Shown: piece by piece, positions 165-8,540 of the stretch
How the letters are laid out: each line of letters begins with the position of its first letter
Numbering within the stretch: position 1 is the stretch's first letter
Assembly (NCBI GenBank): GCA_031291955.1
Contig: JARLIA010000015.1
Location: forward strand, 1-54,203
Length of the DNA: 54,203 nucleotides
Direction of reading: 5' to 3'
Source of the DNA: Minisyncoccota bacterium
GTDB lineage: Bacteria; Patescibacteriota; Minisyncoccia; Moranbacterales; UBA2206
Translations under genes and position numbers: made by a program
The notes under the pieces: generated by a model
The model's input: the letters and a program-made list of their open reading frames with translations, nothing else
What the model was told of the DNA's origin: nothing
Database searches by the model: none

Positions 165-440
165 TTATACCTCAATATCCGTTATTTTCCAGCTCTCACC
201 GGCCGTTTTGCGGATAAAGAATTGCGTGTCTCTGTAGGGCGTGTCTTTGGCAATATTCTCCAGCCCGAACTGGAGATTTTCCTCTGAGATATCTTCCAGG
301 TGCTCCGGGTGGCCGTCATGAGCCATCGCCACCTGGCCAAGTTCAATGTAAACTTTTTTGACCTTAACGGAAAGTTTCTGTTCAAAAACAATCCGGTCCA
401 GCTGTTTAATTATTTCTTTGGCTAACAAAAAATCATGCAT
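165..440 (-). CDS. hypA: HypA-like nickel delivery protein lacking the zinc domain
   Basis: 91 residues, versus roughly 110-120 for usual HypA, the accessory protein that delivers nickel to the [NiFe] hydrogenase large subunit. The protein starts Met-His-Asp, so the N-terminal nickel-binding His2 of the family is kept, followed by a helix (LLAKEIIKQLD) and the strand region ending in IELGQ. The C-terminal half should carry a four-cysteine zinc domain, but this protein has no cysteine at all and ends soon after a short beta segment. It is the last gene of the small-subunit/large-subunit operon, 17 bases after the superoxide reductase gene. The identification rests on the N-terminus and the context. 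It could be a divergent HypA whose zinc site has been lost, or an unrelated short protein. Confidence 0.7.
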   Translation of the reverse strand: MHDFLLAKEIIKQLDRIVFEQKLSVKVKKVYIELGQVAMAHDGHPEHLEDISEENLQFGLENIAKDTPYRDTQFFIRKTAGESWKITDIEV

Positions 441-457
441 ATTTCGACCTGGATTGA

Positions 458-850
458 TTATAAATTAATAACTTCTTCGCTACTCCACAGTCCGTGGACA
501 TTACAATAAGCCCGTGCCTTAATATGCTCGGCCTCCAGAAAAAATTCCGCCCATGGATCCTGGTTGATATCGATCTTTTTCCGATACACCCGGTGCTCCG
601 TAATCACTTCGATCCATTCGATATAGTGAGCCGACTCCATCGGATGCGGCACGCTGCCGACTTTCACAATCACGCCAGAATCGGTCCGCTCGATAACCGG
701 TTTATGTTTTTCCATCCCTTCGTCATCGTTTTTTTCTTGCTTCCACTCCATGTTCTGTCCGCAGCAGACCAATTCTCCCGCTCCGGTATGAACCATTTCG
801 ACCATATTCCCGCAGATATTACACTTATAAATTTGTTTTTGCTCTGTCAT
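458..850 (-). CDS. dfx: Desulfoferrodoxin-type superoxide reductase
   Basis: 130 residues. Superoxide reductase converts superoxide to hydrogen peroxide without making O2, using a square-pyramidal Fe(His)4Cys centre. The N-terminal desulforedoxin domain has Cys10, Cys13, Cys29 and Cys30 for a Fe(Cys)4 site. The catalytic domain shows the family ligands: His49 in EKHKPV with Glu47 beside it, His69 in VPHPM, His75 in AHYIEWIE, Cys116 and His119 in CNVHGLW. Length and motif order match two-iron (class I) enzymes. It lies between the hydrogenase large subunit and HypA on the same strand, which suggests protection of oxygen-sensitive metal centres. A cytoplasmic location is expected, as no signal peptide is seen. 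Confidence 0.95.
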   Translation of the reverse strand: MTEQKQIYKCNICGNMVEMVHTGAGELVCCGQNMEWKQEKNDDEGMEKHKPVIERTDSGVIVKVGSVPHPMESAHYIEWIEVITEHRVYRKKIDINQDPWAEFFLEAEHIKARAYCNVHGLWSSEEVINL

Positions 851-941: not shown

Positions 942-2201
942 TCAATGCACCGCGCAACTGATGCATGGATCATAAGCCCGGATAAAGGCGCGCAACTTCC
1001 TTTCCCGCTCCTTATCGGAAAGATTCATGATGTGCGGAATATATTCTACCACATCATCTTCCAGGTTGGACAGAGACTGAGCGGTCGGAGTGATAATATT
1101 GACATTCTTGATATAACCTTTCAGATCAATATCAACATGATAATAAAGCGTTCCTCGCGGCGCTTCCACCGCCGCGCATCCCGCGCCGGCTTTTATCTCA
1201 TATTCTTTCGTGATTACCTGGTTAAGATCGGATTGTAGAAGCTGTTTGATGAGCAGCTGCGATTCCTCGATCGCGTGAATAACCTCCACCATCTGGGCCA
1301 GAATATTGTCAAAAGGATTGTAGTTGGGAAATTTCCAATTCAACTTGGAAAGATATTCAAAAGCCCGCGGTTTCAATTTGTCACGATTGAGATTGACGCG
1401 GGCAATCGCGCCGATGAGGTAACTCTTTCCATTGTGTTCCACCCGCTTCACCACCTCATGCTGTTTTTGCAGTTCCAAAAAATTTGACTCGAAAGCTGAA
1501 ACCGGAATATGAAGACCGCGATTGGAAATGATGTCGCCGTCGTAAATAGCATAATGATTGTTTTGATAAAGACTGACGTATTCCGTTTCCCGCGAAAAAT
1601 CAGGCAGTTTTATCCCGCGAAAAAATTCCCCGAGTGCCAAGGCATCATTCAACACTCTCGGCGAGTCAGCCACCAATTTCTTGAGCGCTTCCGCATCCGG
1701 CGCCTTTTTGAATCCGCCCGGCTCGTTGGTGAGCGGATGGACCACCCGGCCGCCGATTACTTTAACGATTTCCATGCCGTATTCCCGAAGACGAATAGCT
1801 TTTTTCGTCTCCTCCGGATATTCCTGGACAAGTTTTATATCGTTATCAATATCCAAAAAATCAGCCAGCGAGAGGAAAAAAAGATGGAGAGCGTGGGAAT
1901 GAATGATCTGTCCCAACTCCATCACTTCCCGAAGTTTCTCCGACTCCTCGCTCGGCTGGATTCCCAGCGCGTTTTCGATGGATTTTATGGCAGTCAGATT
2001 GTGCACTACCGGACAGATGCCGCAGATCCGCTGGGCCACGATCGGCATGTCCTTGAAATTGCGGCCGATGAGCACTCCTTCGATGAGCCGGATCCCTTCC
2101 TGCACTTCGAGCTTGGCCGACGCGACATCGCCAGAGAGAACACTGGCCATAAAACCGGTATGACCTTCCATTTTAGCAATGTGATTGATTTTTATCAGCA
2201 T
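942..2201 (-). CDS. [NiFe] hydrogenase large (catalytic) subunit, group 3-like
   Basis: 419 residues. It carries the Ni-Fe(CN)2CO centre that interconverts H2 with protons and electrons. Motif L1 is seen as RICGIC followed by VVH (Cys60, Cys63, His67), and motif L2 at the extreme C-terminus as DPCISC-A-V-H (Cys413, Cys416, His419). Conserved MEGH (10-14), GGRVVHP and EAPRGTLYYH segments are present. The stop codon TGA comes directly after His419, the residue at which maturation proteases normally cut, so there is no C-terminal peptide to remove. The compact size and cytoplasmic character fit group 3 enzymes. It is separated from its small subunit by a matrixin gene, which is unusual. The subgroup is not resolved by eye. 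Confidence 0.95.
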   Translation of the reverse strand: MLIKINHIAKMEGHTGFMASVLSGDVASAKLEVQEGIRLIEGVLIGRNFKDMPIVAQRICGICPVVHNLTAIKSIENALGIQPSEESEKLREVMELGQIIHSHALHLFFLSLADFLDIDNDIKLVQEYPEETKKAIRLREYGMEIVKVIGGRVVHPLTNEPGGFKKAPDAEALKKLVADSPRVLNDALALGEFFRGIKLPDFSRETEYVSLYQNNHYAIYDGDIISNRGLHIPVSAFESNFLELQKQHEVVKRVEHNGKSYLIGAIARVNLNRDKLKPRAFEYLSKLNWKFPNYNPFDNILAQMVEVIHAIEESQLLIKQLLQSDLNQVITKEYEIKAGAGCAAVEAPRGTLYYHVDIDLKGYIKNVNIITPTAQSLSNLEDDVVEYIPHIMNLSDKERERKLRAFIRAYDPCISCAVH

Positions 2202-2252: not shown

Positions 2253-3206
2253 TTAGTTAAAAGCGCAGACCTTGTCCAACTCTGCCAGATCTTCAGCTGT
2301 CGGCTGGATATTGTTCATATTCTGGTCGCCCAGGAGATAATACATGATCGATTTGGAATTTTGGACGTGCTCCATGCCAAGATAGTGTCCCAGTTCGTGC
2401 GTCAGCGTCAGCTCCAGATCAGCGGGAGCCCGGTATTCATAAATGTTTATCTCCTTGCCATCAAACACTCCTTTTTCAAATTCCTGAGTTCCGCCGTATT
2501 GACTGGTATAAGTCTCGACGCTGCTGTTGTAACTTTTAACCGCCTGATTCTCTTGGGTCGCCACTCCGTTCGTCTGGCTAGCCAACTTATTTATCGCCTG
2601 CCGTTCCTTATCAAGATTCTTGTATTCGTCATCCAGCTGGCTCTTTTCTTTTTTAAGCTTATTGTATTCTTCCTCCGGCGCCCCGCCATAGCTGTTCCAG
2701 CGATCCACCTCGGAATTATATTTGTCCAAATCTTTTTTATAATTCGACAGATCTTTATTGTAATTATCCACCTTTTGTTTGTAGGCAGTGCTCAAGGAAT
2801 TATATCGCCCGGTCAAATCAGTATCGGTCGCCTTGAGGTTTTGGTAGTTCTGATCCAATTGGGCGGCCGCGTCGGATTGCTGCTGGCGGCTGTCATAAAT
2901 CATATTGATTTTGAAAGTGGAATTCGGGTCATAAGCCAGCACCGTCCTTCCGGCCGCCTTATTCCAGACATCCGCCGCCTGTCCGGCCGATTGCGCGAGT
3001 TGATCTTTGGATATGCCAAATTTCGGATCAACATTTCCGATAGCAAACGAGCGCGATTGACCACAGGGATGATAGAGTCCGAGTTTGCTCGCCACGGTTG
3101 TCTCGGCTTGCTGGAAGACAGGACGCGCTTGATCCTGATGGGTCAAAATTATGCCCGCCGCCGCGAAAAGAACGACGATTAAAAGATACCCGAAAAATTT
3201 CTTCAT
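2253..3206 (-). CDS. Membrane-anchored matrixin-like zinc metalloprotease with coiled-coil insert
   Basis: 317 residues. An N-terminal hydrophobic segment (about 4-21) is a signal anchor, so the protein is probably outside the membrane. The zinc motif HELGHYLGMEH (270-280) fits HExxHxxGxxH of M10/M12 metzincins, and Met288 in SIMYY fits the Met-turn. A substrate-side strand (about 97-107, FKINMIYDSR) is separated from the catalytic helix by roughly 110 residues rich in Lys, Asp, Tyr, Asn and Gln (about 110-220) that look like a long coiled coil. The usual pro-domain cysteine switch is not evident. It lies between the hydrogenase subunit genes with about 50-base gaps on each side. A role in hydrogenase maturation is unlikely because it appears exported; co-transcription may be incidental. 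Confidence 0.85.
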   Translation of the reverse strand: MKKFFGYLLIVVLFAAAGIILTHQDQARPVFQQAETTVASKLGLYHPCGQSRSFAIGNVDPKFGISKDQLAQSAGQAADVWNKAAGRTVLAYDPNSTFKINMIYDSRQQQSDAAAQLDQNYQNLKATDTDLTGRYNSLSTAYKQKVDNYNKDLSNYKKDLDKYNSEVDRWNSYGGAPEEEYNKLKKEKSQLDDEYKNLDKERQAINKLASQTNGVATQENQAVKSYNSSVETYTSQYGGTQEFEKGVFDGKEINIYEYRAPADLELTLTHELGHYLGMEHVQNSKSIMYYLLGDQNMNNIQPTAEDLAELDKVCAFN

Positions 3207-4310: not shown

Positions 4311-4349
4311 AAAAAATAAGCGGAGTGGTTCCAATGAAACCGCTCCGCT
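4311..4349 (-). terminator. Rho-independent terminator ending the diaphorase/hypC unit
   Basis: Perfect 12-base inverted repeat AGCGGAGCGGTT / AACCACTCCGCT type (4319-4330 with 4338-4349, 7-base loop), followed on the minus strand by TTATTTTTT (4311-4318). It overlaps the stop codon of the 225-residue gene and separates the two hydrogenase transcription units. Confidence 0.9.
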
Positions 4350-5025
4350 AAAACAAACACTTCCAGAAGTCCTTGGTCCATTCATGAACATTCCAAAAAG
4401 ATCGATAGTCTATTTCCTTGATAGCTCCGGCCGCCTCCATGAATTCTTTGGACTTTGCCTGCCTATCTTTGAATAAACGCCGAGTTTGATTACTGATGCC
4501 GATCTCCACTATTGTGGCGAAGTGAATGAGAGCAACTCCTTTTTTTGGAATATCCCCCTTGAGCCAAGGATGGGGCAGTAACCCATTGATGGCCACATGC
4601 ACCTTACCATTGACGTAACTTGCCCGAAATTCTTCCCCATCCCGATATAGTGTTACGGGAACCAACAAATGGGAGAAAAGAAATTTATCCGCGAACTTCG
4701 GATTCCTTTTCCGGAGTTCTTGGGCCGCGATTTGGTCCAGGGTAAAATCCACGTGCTCTTGCTCGGAAAAGAAGCTATGGATAATTCCACTATGAATTTT
4801 TTCCCAACCGCGCATTCTGGCGAATACCTCCAGAGCTTTATAGGTGAAGCTTTTTTGGGGTAAATTTCTCACCAACTCCGCATAGTCGAGCGTCTCCTGG
4901 GAATTCTCCATTCGCTTGACCACGTCTATCAAATAGCGGGTATTGTCGGCTTTTTTTTCTCCGAATACCCGGCAGCTAGTGTTGAGGATGACCAATTTCT
5001 CCAAAGCTCCCTTGTTAATGATCAT
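4348..5025 (-). CDS. Unrecognised 225-residue protein in hydrogenase maturation context
   Basis: I do not recognise this family. The protein is soluble, mixed alpha/beta, without signal peptide or membrane helix. Visible features are a central beta-rich stretch (LLVPVTLYRDGEEFRASYVN, about 120-140), a following GLLPHPWLKGD segment, and a C-terminal WNVHEWTKDFWKC segment rich in Trp. There are only two cysteines and no CxxC. Its start overlaps the end of hypC by 4 bases (ATGA), a sign of translational coupling, and the gene ends in the operon terminator. The tight pairing with HypC suggests a maturation or assembly role, but that is inference from position only. It is not HypB, D, E or F: no GTPase, CxxC-cluster or acylphosphatase motifs are seen. 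Confidence 0.8.
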   Translation of the reverse strand: MIINKGALEKLVILNTSCRVFGEKKADNTRYLIDVVKRMENSQETLDYAELVRNLPQKSFTYKALEVFARMRGWEKIHSGIIHSFFSEQEHVDFTLDQIAAQELRKRNPKFADKFLFSHLLVPVTLYRDGEEFRASYVNGKVHVAINGLLPHPWLKGDIPKKGVALIHFATIVEIGISNQTRRLFKDRQAKSKEFMEAAGAIKEIDYRSFWNVHEWTKDFWKCLF

Positions 5026-5246
5026 AATATTTCCTCCTTTTCTTTTATCCGGCGTATCTCTTTAATCAAGTCCTGAGCATCACTTTTGTCCATTTTATCA
5101 ATAACGACATTCTGCTGCGTTAAGCAGAAGTCGCCGGGTTTTAATTCTACTATCGTTTTCATTTCCTGTCTATCGCCGTTCGGATTTTCTACTATAACTA
5201 CGCCGCCATTGATTGATATTACTTTTTTGGGAATTGTTAGGCACAT
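5022..5246 (-). CDS. hypC: HypC/HupF hydrogenase assembly chaperone
   Basis: 74 residues, the usual HypC size. It begins MCLTIP, with the catalytic Cys2 that carries the Fe(CN)2CO unit with HypD and hands it to the large subunit. Family features VISINGGVVIVE (barrel strand) and LKPGDFCL (normally GDYVLVH) follow, then a charged C-terminal helix with DAQDLIKEI. The stop overlaps the start of the 225-residue gene. HypD, HypE and HypF, which it needs, are not in the window. Confidence 0.92.
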   Translation of the reverse strand: MCLTIPKKVISINGGVVIVENPNGDRQEMKTIVELKPGDFCLTQQNVVIDKMDKSDAQDLIKEIRRIKEKEEIL

Positions 5247-5268: not shown

Positions 5269-6711
5269 TTAGAAATTAGAAATTTTCATACTTTGTCCGC
5301 CACCATTCCCGCATCCTTCCGGGCAGACCATCACTTCCAGAAAATCGCATTCTAATTCACGCTTTTGGATATCCTCCAAAACTTTTTTTATCTCCAGAAC
5401 GCCATTGGCTTTTTGTATCGCCAAATCTGATTTTAATATTTCCGAGAGATTGCCGAAACGCGTCATTTTTTCATATTTTTCATCATAACCATTGAGAAAT
5501 TTGTCCGCCTGAACTTCTTTTATATTTTTCGGATTATATTTTTTGAGTCTGACCAGGCGACCCAGTTCGCGAACGGTAATGATACAATCCAAAGTGCTAC
5601 TCTTCAATTTTTTTCTGGCCGTGCAAGCCGAAATCAGAACGGTGCGAATATTGCCGGAATCGATTTTTTCCTGGCGGGCATATTCGTTTTTCACGGCCGC
5701 CGCCATCAATTCCTCCGGCCGCAAGGTTTTAGCGATATGTCCAGATAGTTCCGGAAAATATTTTCGGATATAGAGTTCGGCCGACGGGCAGAAACTAGAA
5801 ATGATCAACTGATGTTTATTATTTTTATTTTTTTGGAAAAGCCACCGACGCGGATGAATCTCTTGTTCCAAAGCTTCGACGTATTTTTCATATCCCCAAC
5901 CCGAATCAAACACCTTTTCAAAGCCTAGCTCGCGAAGCAGGCTGGCCAGTTTTTCCTTACTATCAACGCCGGGAAATTCATTGCCAATACTTTCCAATAC
6001 CGCCGGATCAATGACCGCCACCGCCAAAATATTCATATTGTCTAAATCTTTTACGATATTCTCCAGATCGCCTTGATCAGTGAGCGCCGCCGTCGGGCAA
6101 TGCTTGACACAGGCTCCGCAGAAAATGCAATCAAGCGGTTCGTTGTAGGCCGTTCCGACCACCGAAGCGCCGCCCCGATGGTTAAAGCCATAGGACTTCA
6201 CCGGACAGATATTGATGCACCGCCGGCATTCCACGCAATATTCGGTCGTCCGAGCGATGACCGGATTTTCCTCGTCTACTACTACTCGCGCCCAGTTGTC
6301 GCGCACTAAATTCAATTCTTCGTCCGAAGTAATTTCAACTCTGCGTGGCACGAAATGGAAATTCTCTATTTTATATTCCTCGGCCAATTTTTGGAATTCG
6401 CATTGCCGGTTTTTCTTGCAGGAAATACATTTCCCGGCGTGATCCGACCAGAGCAGTTCCAAATTTATTTCCCTGGCTTTCTTAATCTTTTCCGATTCTG
6501 TTATTATTTCCAGGCCGTTGCTCACTTTGGTCGTGCAAGATGTCACCAATTTTCCGCCGATTTCCACCAAACACAAACGGCAAACCGCCTCGCGCTTCAA
6601 TTTTCCGTGTTGGCATAAAGTTGGAACGGGAATATTTTCCCGCCGGCAAACATCCAGGACTGTCTCGCCTTCACTGGCTGCGTATTTTTTTCCGTTTATT
6701 TTAATTTCCAT
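5269..6711 (-). CDS. HydA/NuoG-like iron-sulfur subunit with decayed [FeFe]-hydrogenase domain
   Basis: 480 residues from the ATG at 6711 (an in-frame TTG lies three codons upstream). Domains in order: 2Fe-2S ferredoxin (Cys33, 44, 47, 59); His-ligated 4Fe-4S (His91, Cys95, 98, 104); two 4Fe-4S ferredoxin motifs (Cys159, 162, 165, 169 and 195, 198, 201, 205); then an [FeFe]-hydrogenase-like domain. The H-cluster motifs are altered. TSCCP reads SSFCP, losing the proton-relay Cys (Phe307) but keeping Cys308. MPCTxKK reads SACTARK, keeping Cys363 but with Arg366 for the Lys. The third motif EVMVCPEGCGNGGGQ keeps Cys463 and Cys467. The segment with GGVMEAA is missing. So it probably binds a cubane cluster but not an active diiron site, and works as the electron conduit between the diaphorase and the [NiFe] subunits. 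The last residues (KISNF) are coded by spacer repeat. Confidence 0.9.
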   Translation of the reverse strand: MEIKINGKKYAASEGETVLDVCRRENIPVPTLCQHGKLKREAVCRLCLVEIGGKLVTSCTTKVSNGLEIITESEKIKKAREINLELLWSDHAGKCISCKKNRQCEFQKLAEEYKIENFHFVPRRVEITSDEELNLVRDNWARVVVDEENPVIARTTEYCVECRRCINICPVKSYGFNHRGGASVVGTAYNEPLDCIFCGACVKHCPTAALTDQGDLENIVKDLDNMNILAVAVIDPAVLESIGNEFPGVDSKEKLASLLRELGFEKVFDSGWGYEKYVEALEQEIHPRRWLFQKNKNNKHQLIISSFCPSAELYIRKYFPELSGHIAKTLRPEELMAAAVKNEYARQEKIDSGNIRTVLISACTARKKLKSSTLDCIITVRELGRLVRLKKYNPKNIKEVQADKFLNGYDEKYEKMTRFGNLSEILKSDLAIQKANGVLEIKKVLEDIQKRELECDFLEVMVCPEGCGNGGGQSMKISNF

Positions 6712-8093: not shown

Positions 8094-8540
8094 CTATATC
8101 CATTCTTCCAGTATCTCCCCCACTCCGCCCGCCGTCACTCTTTCGTAAACCTTATCATTAATAACCGCCACTGGTCCTTCGCCACACCGCCCGAGACAAC
8201 TGATAATTTCCAATTTGACCCGCGGATTGTTTTCATCTCCGGCTTTTATATGCAGCTTATTTTCTATCTCTTCTACGATCTTTCGCGAGTCCGAAACCGC
8301 ACAATGTGTTCCCGAGCAAACTTTTATAATTAAATTTGGTTGTTTTTTTATGTTGACCAAATCATAAAAACTAGCCGTTTCATAAACCTTGCTCTCCGGC
8401 AATGAGAAATAATCCGCCACCTTCCGGGCGTTCTCCCGAGAGACATATCCGAAAACGGCGCTGATCTTCTCCAGCGCCGGCAAAAGATTCTTCGCCTCCG
8501 GATCATATTCCAAAAGAATTTTTTCTAAAGTGATAAGCAT
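8094..8540 (-). CDS. NuoE/HydC-like 2Fe-2S diaphorase subunit
   Basis: 148 residues, the normal size for NuoE/HydC/HoxE. Thioredoxin-fold 2Fe-2S domain with Cys75 and Cys80 (CSGTHC) and Cys115 and Cys119 (CLGRC). The N-terminal helical bundle includes ALEKISAVFGYVSRE and the ETASFYDLV segment typical of the family. It partners the NuoF-like protein at the flavin end of the complex. It is the first gene of the diaphorase unit. An 11-base inverted repeat (CATATTAACAT / ATGTTAATATG) fills the 61-base gap to fba upstream; no clear U-run follows it, so read-through from fba is possible. Confidence 0.93.
   Translation of the reverse strand: MLITLEKILLEYDPEAKNLLPALEKISAVFGYVSRENARKVADYFSLPESKVYETASFYDLVNIKKQPNLIIKVCSGTHCAVSDSRKIVEEIENKLHIKAGDENNPRVKLEIISCLGRCGEGPVAVINDKVYERVTAGGVGEILEEWI

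Follow-up and report, generated by a model that had tools for sequence, protein, structure and literature searches.

A degenerate [FeFe]-hydrogenase domain in the HydA-like subunit of a [NiFe]-hydrogenase locus from a Minisyncoccota bacterium

Although [FeFe]- and [NiFe]-hydrogenases have no common origin, NADH-side modules are found with both. The nearest known enzyme to the one described here is A. mobile NiFe-HydABCSL (NiFe-Bfu, PDB 7T2R/7T30, PMC8880783), which likewise joins a HydABC-like module to a [NiFe] small/large pair, and in which HydA likewise has no H-cluster and carries clusters A1-A4. Electrons from its [NiFe] site are said to enter HydA at A3, and cluster A5, at the H-cluster position, is described as a terminus that lies off the path (PMC8880783, PMC9304861). 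Its HydB, of 597 residues, carries B2-B5, and the enzyme bifurcates.

Three subunits and a short HydB are also the plan of the non-bifurcating group A6 [FeFe]-hydrogenases (Syntrophomonas wolfei Hyd1ABC, Syntrophus HydAB; PMC7311640, PMC5626996). The closest known case of an H-domain kept without its H-cluster is Nar1/IOP1/NARF of eukaryotes (PMC12991071), likewise an [FeFe]-hydrogenase relative that has kept cysteines and taken another role. It differs in being a cytosolic Fe-S assembly factor, outside hydrogenase complexes.

Among [NiFe]-hydrogenases, HoxEFUYH/HoxFUYH (group 3d) has a like plan, with HoxEF as diaphorase, HoxU corresponding to the HydA N-terminus, and a [NiFe] dimer. HoxU is not known to bear an H-domain remnant. 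In archaeal hybrid hydrogenases the [FeFe] part is reportedly active. These hybrids likewise consist of joined [FeFe] and [NiFe] parts (Greening et al. 2024, as cited in other papers). The limited set of papers searched contains no report of a [NiFe] operon bearing a true degenerate H-domain. The available portion of PMC10811913 describes group 3b [NiFe] hydrogenases in Moranbacteria and mentions no such HydA subunit.

The locus compared here lies in a window of 54,203 nucleotides, contig JARLIA010000015.1 of assembly GCA_031291955.1. The genome, labelled G000, comprises 1.01 Mb in 15 contigs. Its completeness of 100% was estimated by a tool, and a gene's absence means less in a draft genome than it would in a closed one. 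The original prediction gave the HydA frame as 5269-6711 and named no strand; the frame is indeed open, reading 6711-5269 on the minus strand for 480 codons plus stop. It belongs to a cluster of minus-strand genes in the order HoxE/HydC, HoxF/HydB, HydA, HypC-like, U225, HydS, matrixin-like protease, HydL, desulfoferrodoxin and HypA-like (Table 1).

Table 1. Positions in the window of the hydrogenase genes and of selected HydA residues
Feature	Coordinates	Strand	Basis
HydC/HoxE/NuoE-like, 148 aa, [2Fe-2S] thioredoxin-like	8094..8540	-	PF01257 E 2.3e-35
HydB/HoxF/NuoF-like FMN + NADH subunit, 410 aa	6736..7968	-	PF01512, PF10589
HydA-like subunit, 480 aa	5269..6711	-	ORF, CpI alignment, Pfam
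HydA N-terminal wire domain, residues 1-213	6073..6711	-	PF13510, PF10588, Fer4
Wire-domain clusters: A1 [2Fe-2S]; A3 His-Cys3 [4Fe-4S]; A2 and A4 [4Fe-4S]			
Degenerate H-cluster domain, HydA residues 214-480	5272..6072	-	PF02906, residue table, model and fold match
F307 codon at proton-relay position CpI C299	5791..5793	-	CpI alignment, residue table
C308 codon, cubane ligand CpI C300	5788..5790	-	CpI alignment, residue table
C363 codon, CpI C355	5623..5625	-	CpI alignment, residue table
R366 codon at CpI K358 position, window-specific	5614..5616	-	CpI alignment, residue table
C463 codon, CpI C499	5323..5325	-	CpI alignment, residue table
C467 codon, CpI C503	5311..5313	-	CpI alignment, residue table
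Divergent HypC-like, 74 codons, start MCLTIPKKV	5022..5246	-	TIGR00074 E 7.4e-7, 29 bits, below cut-off of 48
U225, 225 aa, putative protein	4348..5025	-	relatives have related ORFs immediately upstream of HydS
[NiFe] small subunit HydS, group 3b delta-like, 325 aa	3264..4241	-	PF01058
Matrixin-like metalloprotease between HydS and HydL	2253..3206	-	PF00413
[NiFe] large subunit HydL, group 3b alpha-like	942..2201	-	PF00374
Desulfoferrodoxin	458..850	-	
HypA-like nickel chaperone	165..440	-	PF01155 E 2.3e-5, just under cut-off; conserved beside HydL

The Pfam domains of HydA run 2Fe-2S, NuoG-type His-Cys3, two-cluster ferredoxin and Fe_hyd_lg_C; the last (PF02906) spans residues 231-471 with E = 1e-39. 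The best NCBIfam match is A6 (E 9e-90), scoring 301.6 bits where the curated cut-off is 765. Compared with group A6, the active site is destroyed in the window and [NiFe] genes are linked.

HydB and the HydA N-terminus are homologous to those of A. mobile. The A. mobile HydA, however, has 692 residues, and the window's HydA aligns with it over residues 3-211 only. An H-domain profile gives no match to 7t2r_A up to E = 1, which is a sequence search and leaves a shared fold possible. The C-terminal part of the window's HydA is a true H-domain, whereas the profile does not detect one in the A. mobile protein. The small subunits differ in size and type as well. On the HydA and HydB comparisons together, the two were judged not to be the same enzyme.

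CpI positions were read in 43 relatives from 42 whole genomes, and in the window. The HydA proteins fall into three classes without intermediates: 24 canonical, 11 mid (the window included) and 9 short. Canonical HydA, of 567-602 aa, occurs in sister families and keeps C299, W303, M353, K358 and the four cubane ligands. The mid type, of 464-482 aa, has all four ligands in every member, K358 in ten of eleven, and the relay Cys, E279, W303 and M353 in none. Short HydA (338-353 aa) has lost all four H-cluster ligands while the rest of the complex is kept; these short forms approach HoxU. A search of 384 further genomes of the class, some of them searched before, found only full-length HydA outside the Moranbacteria-like family.

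Some sequences were set aside. The HydA of G034, at 220 aa, might have been a HoxU-like fourth stage, but a contig end cuts the gene. G018 has a canonical HydA beside its mid-type one; it groups with G072 of another family, is likely a binning contaminant or a transfer, and was not used. In G009, of family f1, HydL is absent and the canonical HydA is distant; this HydA is probably a separate acquisition. As a separate observation, G005, which also has a mid-type HydA, contains elsewhere a second HydA-like stretch (L091:8778-9395, 28% identity over query 254-471, open frame of 287 aa), an extra stand-alone H-domain fragment.

In the alignment of the window's HydA with CpI, from which the CpI numbers were counted, C308, C363, C463 and C467 fall on the cubane ligands C300, C355, C499 and C503. 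The original prediction had claimed that these four cysteines are kept, and had itself named their failure to superpose as what would overturn it; they do superpose. The P3 motif ExMxCxxGCxxGGGQ is present, as EVMVCPEGCGNGGGQ, and so is the fold of the large-subunit C-terminal domain (PF02906; Z 24.6-28). Motif P1, TSCCPxW with the relay Cys, reads SSFCPSA in the window, where F307 aligns with C299; the position is His in seven of the mid-type proteins, and otherwise Phe, Ser, Asn or Tyr. Motif P2, MPCxxKK, reads SACTARK, with S361-A362-C363 on M353-P354-C355, and P354 is lost in ten of the eleven. Both the Phe and the SA had been called correctly. Arg in place of the conserved Lys is right for the window, where R366 aligns with K358, but it is no feature of the class.

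The GGVMEAA segment, said earlier to be deleted, survives in the mid type as a GGxxE remnant (GNLSE in the window). The missing parts are the roughly 35 residues that follow GGxxE and a C-terminal segment of about 90. E279, W303 and S319 (kept in 1 of 11), residues of the proton path and pocket, are losses beyond those first listed.

An AlphaFold2 model of the window's HydA, made from a 19-sequence alignment and without metals, has a moderate mean pLDDT of 69.6; block values are mostly 70-93 across 214-470, and confidence is low at 135-204. VIA-align places the modelled H-domain on DdHydAB, CpI, CbA5H, HDCR HydA2 and CrHydA1 with Z 24.6-28.4 and a fit of about 3-3.6 A over 260-295 residues, or 8 A where both halves are forced together. 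The region is thus predicted to take the [FeFe]-hydrogenase fold. The model of a short-form HydA is poor (pLDDT 63).

In the mid-type H-domain 31 of 267 positions are invariant (n = 11), and all four ligand cysteines are among them. The hypergeometric chance of this is 1.5e-4, a figure that ignores shared descent. The other two H-domain cysteines of the window, 376 and 455, are not invariant among the 11 orthologues. The 16 ligands of A1-A4 are all invariant in the 44 aligned sequences, across the three classes. The original suggestion that the domain is kept for structure or for a 4Fe-4S cluster is supported indirectly, as regards the four H-domain cysteines being kept for a cluster.

The frame is not a pseudogene, given 480 open codons, dN/dS far below 1 and orthologues in 10 further genomes. 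Sequencing or assembly error is likewise ruled out, since independent genomes show the identical residue pattern.

A tree was made from HoxF and the HydA N-terminus (627 columns, LG+I+G4). All degenerate HydA form one clade (support 88), sister to the canonical HydABC of family f11 (support 100). The short forms are a clade (support 73) nested inside the mid types, and branch support within the degenerate clade is weak. The simplest history on this tree would run from canonical to cubane-only to cluster-free.

Selection was estimated from few usable close pairs. In the H-domain dN/dS is 0.04 for canonical proteins, 0.08-0.19 for the mid type and 0.19-0.34 for the short-form remnant, against 0.04-0.10 in the N-terminal domain of all classes. 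By these sequence estimates, constraint on the H-domain is relaxed stepwise yet still selected. The graded loss that ends in deletion of the site, and the relaxed selection on the short-form remnant, are what one would expect of a purely structural relic, in which the cysteines fold round a cluster or zinc without electron exchange and the domain is in the course of being lost. Even so, this reading is quite unlikely. The ligands stay invariant over deep divergence, with mid-type orthologues sharing only 50-56% identity and most other positions changing. A relic would also be expected to lose its ligands piecemeal, yet no HydA with only one to three of them was seen among the 44 sequences.

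HydE, HydF and HydG were not found in G000. Together with the loss of the relay Cys, E279, W303 and the MP motif in the mid type, this supports the earlier claim that the domain is inactive for H2 chemistry. The proton path is gone, and no di-iron subsite would be built. It is conceivable that the protein remains an [FeFe]-hydrogenase with unusual chemistry, its di-iron subsite coming from another organism, and the absence of HydE/HydG matches from about 20 related genomes with an intact canonical site could be read that way. With the same residues lost and deletions in the pocket in 11 of 11 orthologues, this is extremely improbable. Those genomes (L068-L090, L093; families f4, f7, f9, f10 and f11) are an observation in their own right: only G084 has a HydE-HydF-HydG cluster (L092:4579-8391), and in the others the maturases were either missed or are supplied otherwise.

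The [NiFe] side is as follows. The best PDB match of HydS is P. furiosus sulfhydrogenase 1 delta (E 7e-36), and HydL matches sulfhydrogenase 1 alpha across its full length (E 1.3e-65); P. furiosus SHI and group 3b thus supply the nearest solved relatives of the pair. HydS has additional C-terminal cysteines past the proximal-cluster motif. HydL keeps both CxxC ligand pairs of the active site (RICGIC, DPCISC), and is 3b-like, which sets it apart from group 3d. The group 3b gamma-subunit domain PF10418 is absent from G000. This makes HydABC the obvious diaphorase, apparently in place of the beta/gamma subunits of P. furiosus SHI.

CISCAVH is the very end of the HydL frame, leaving no C-terminal extension that a maturation protease could remove. 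The matrixin-like metalloprotease between HydS and HydL recurs in L053, L058, L062, L063, L064, L067, L135, L136 and L147.

HypD and HypE were not found in G000, although the [NiFe] ligands are intact and a HypC-like gene is present. In other f1 genomes HypC, HypD, HypE and HypF are all present. Activity of the [NiFe] site in the window's enzyme is presumed from its sequence; the missing HypD/HypE weigh against the hybrid enzyme proposed below. The same combination, intact HydS-HydL with HypD/HypE undetected, is seen in G000, G001, G002, G005, G019, G020, G047, G040 and G015; the loci tied to it besides the window are L057, L063, L064, L133 and L134.

U225, whose start overlaps the stop of the HypC-like gene (ATGA), has no match in Pfam or NCBIfam. 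Iterated HMM searching gives a family of 7 members, about 220 aa long, found directly upstream of HydS in G000, G001, G005, G019, G040 and G047; G008 has both a member and HypD/HypE. On inspection by eye, the C-terminal part of U225 resembles HypC (VLVHYGFI). U225 could belong to an alternative route for making Fe(CN)2CO.

In G015 (L135:8037-10773) a HypC-HydE fusion and HydG lie immediately upstream of HydS-HydL. The fusion matches TIGR00074 at 1-67 and TIGR03956 at 88-393, both over cut-off, and the genome has no HydA match, no HydF over cut-off and no HypD. Possibly the [FeFe] maturases are re-used there for building the [NiFe] site.

The gene after degenerate HydA is HypC in 20 of 20 loci, and after canonical HydA in 0 of 24 (Fisher 5.7e-13, for lineages that are non-independent, degenerate HydA being one clade). 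No hyp genes lie near canonical HydA in any of the 24 loci. In degenerate loci HypD, HypE and a HypF-like gene usually come after HypC; where the contig is intact, HydS-HydL-HypA often come next. HydS-HydL lies 1 to 7 kb beyond degenerate HydA/HypC in many loci. The link between the domain and a [NiFe] enzyme, as first proposed, is thereby supported.

HydABC occurs together with the [NiFe] small and large subunit genes in the window and in at least 10 related loci. Of 28 family-f1 genomes with degenerate HydA, 26 carry HydL of the window's type, and the other two are only 70% and 79% complete. In six genomes (G004, G010, G012, G016, G025 and G031) HydABC and HydS-HydL are on separate contigs or tens of kb apart; this, and the occurrence of HydS-HydL without HydABC, speak against a single complex. 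Either part also occurs without the other: HydS-HydL without HydABC in families f3, f4, f6, f7 and f8 and in G002, G014, G015 and G020, and HydABC without close HydS-HydL in families f9 and f11. The window shares with f7 HydS-HydL loci that have no HydABC a synteny of fructose-bisphosphate aldolase, triosephosphate isomerase, galT, glycosyltransferase and RuvX. This points to insertion of HydABC next to a [NiFe] locus already in place.

The window's HydB, at 410 aa, aligns to residues 117-509 of the A. mobile protein. It has neither the N- nor the C-terminal ferredoxin-like domain, including the regions that bear B3-B5 in A. mobile, and so does not have the B2-B5 set of a bifurcating core. It reads SEPGTYKDR where bifurcating enzymes carry GDPGAFMDR (for signature and domains see PMC7311640 and PMC9304861). 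Length and signature rule out a bifurcating enzyme; judged by sequence, this should therefore be an NADH:acceptor unit without ferredoxin coupling.

On balance, the locus probably encodes an NAD(H)-linked, non-bifurcating hydrogenase of two sources: a group 3b-like [NiFe] core, HydS-HydL, and a captured HydABC module from a group A6-like [FeFe]-hydrogenase, its H-domain a catalytically dead side branch. In such an assembly, H2 electrons from the [NiFe] site would reach A3 or A4 of HydA by way of HydS, then go to A2, A1 and HydB (B1, FMN) and on to NAD+, or the reverse. The mid-type H-domain would most likely hold a plain [4Fe-4S] cluster beside A4, a side branch by analogy with A5 of A. mobile, kept for folding and packing and, it may be, for storing an electron. 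In the derived clade this cluster and most of the H-domain would have been lost and the remainder retained.

The domain was originally called an inactive electron-transfer module. Inactive is supported; for the H-domain, the role of wire would be a possibility, the clear path being A1-A4 in residues 1-213. A wire could run through it if the docking site of HydS is the H-domain or its surroundings, with the cubane relaying electrons on-path between [NiFe] and A4; in the short forms HydS would have moved closer, with electrons passing directly to A4. A canonical H-cluster passes electrons to the adjacent [4Fe-4S] cluster, so the distance would be suitable. The ligands invariant in 11 mid-type proteins and the purifying selection on the domain fit this too, as does HydS, which is delta-like and, in its long C-terminal part, differs from the A. 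mobile small subunit. At 325 aa against 179 aa, this HydS may dock elsewhere, and the off-path argument then carries over less surely. Such a relay is nevertheless unlikely. A5 is a terminus in A. mobile, where electrons enter at A3, and the A3 ligands are fully conserved here. The cluster is dispensed with in the short forms: because nine of them have lost every H-cluster ligand, the cubane is no obligatory relay in all relatives.

The best reading is that the N-terminal 213 residues of HydA are the wire, and that the H-domain, reduced to its cubane, is a remnant that can be dispensed with and is under purifying selection. A bolder idea is that the mid-type H-domain is a new kind of redox site, in which an [FeFe] active site pared down to the cubane serves again as a functioning one-electron centre of a [NiFe] hydrogenase, halfway in the series and with the [NiFe] site built without HypD/HypE. 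This is possible, if doubtful. The earlier phrase "direct evidence" of an [FeFe] enzyme becoming a wire is too strong in any case; the evidence is comparative-genomic, made up of sequences, gene order and one predicted fold, though the graded series is good.

For annotation there is a warning: degenerate HydA scores strongly as [FeFe]-hydrogenase (Pfam 1e-39), and is not to be counted as an H2 enzyme. The proteins also provide a natural test of electron transfer by a lone cubane within an H-domain fold. Hox and HydABCSL show end states only. The living genomes of one small clade show the stages: an active domain, a cubane-only domain and a cluster-free stub. These stages trace how an [FeFe] catalyst was lost and how its NADH arm ended up beside a [NiFe] core, and they make the order of events testable: diaphorase capture, then catalyst loss, then cluster loss.
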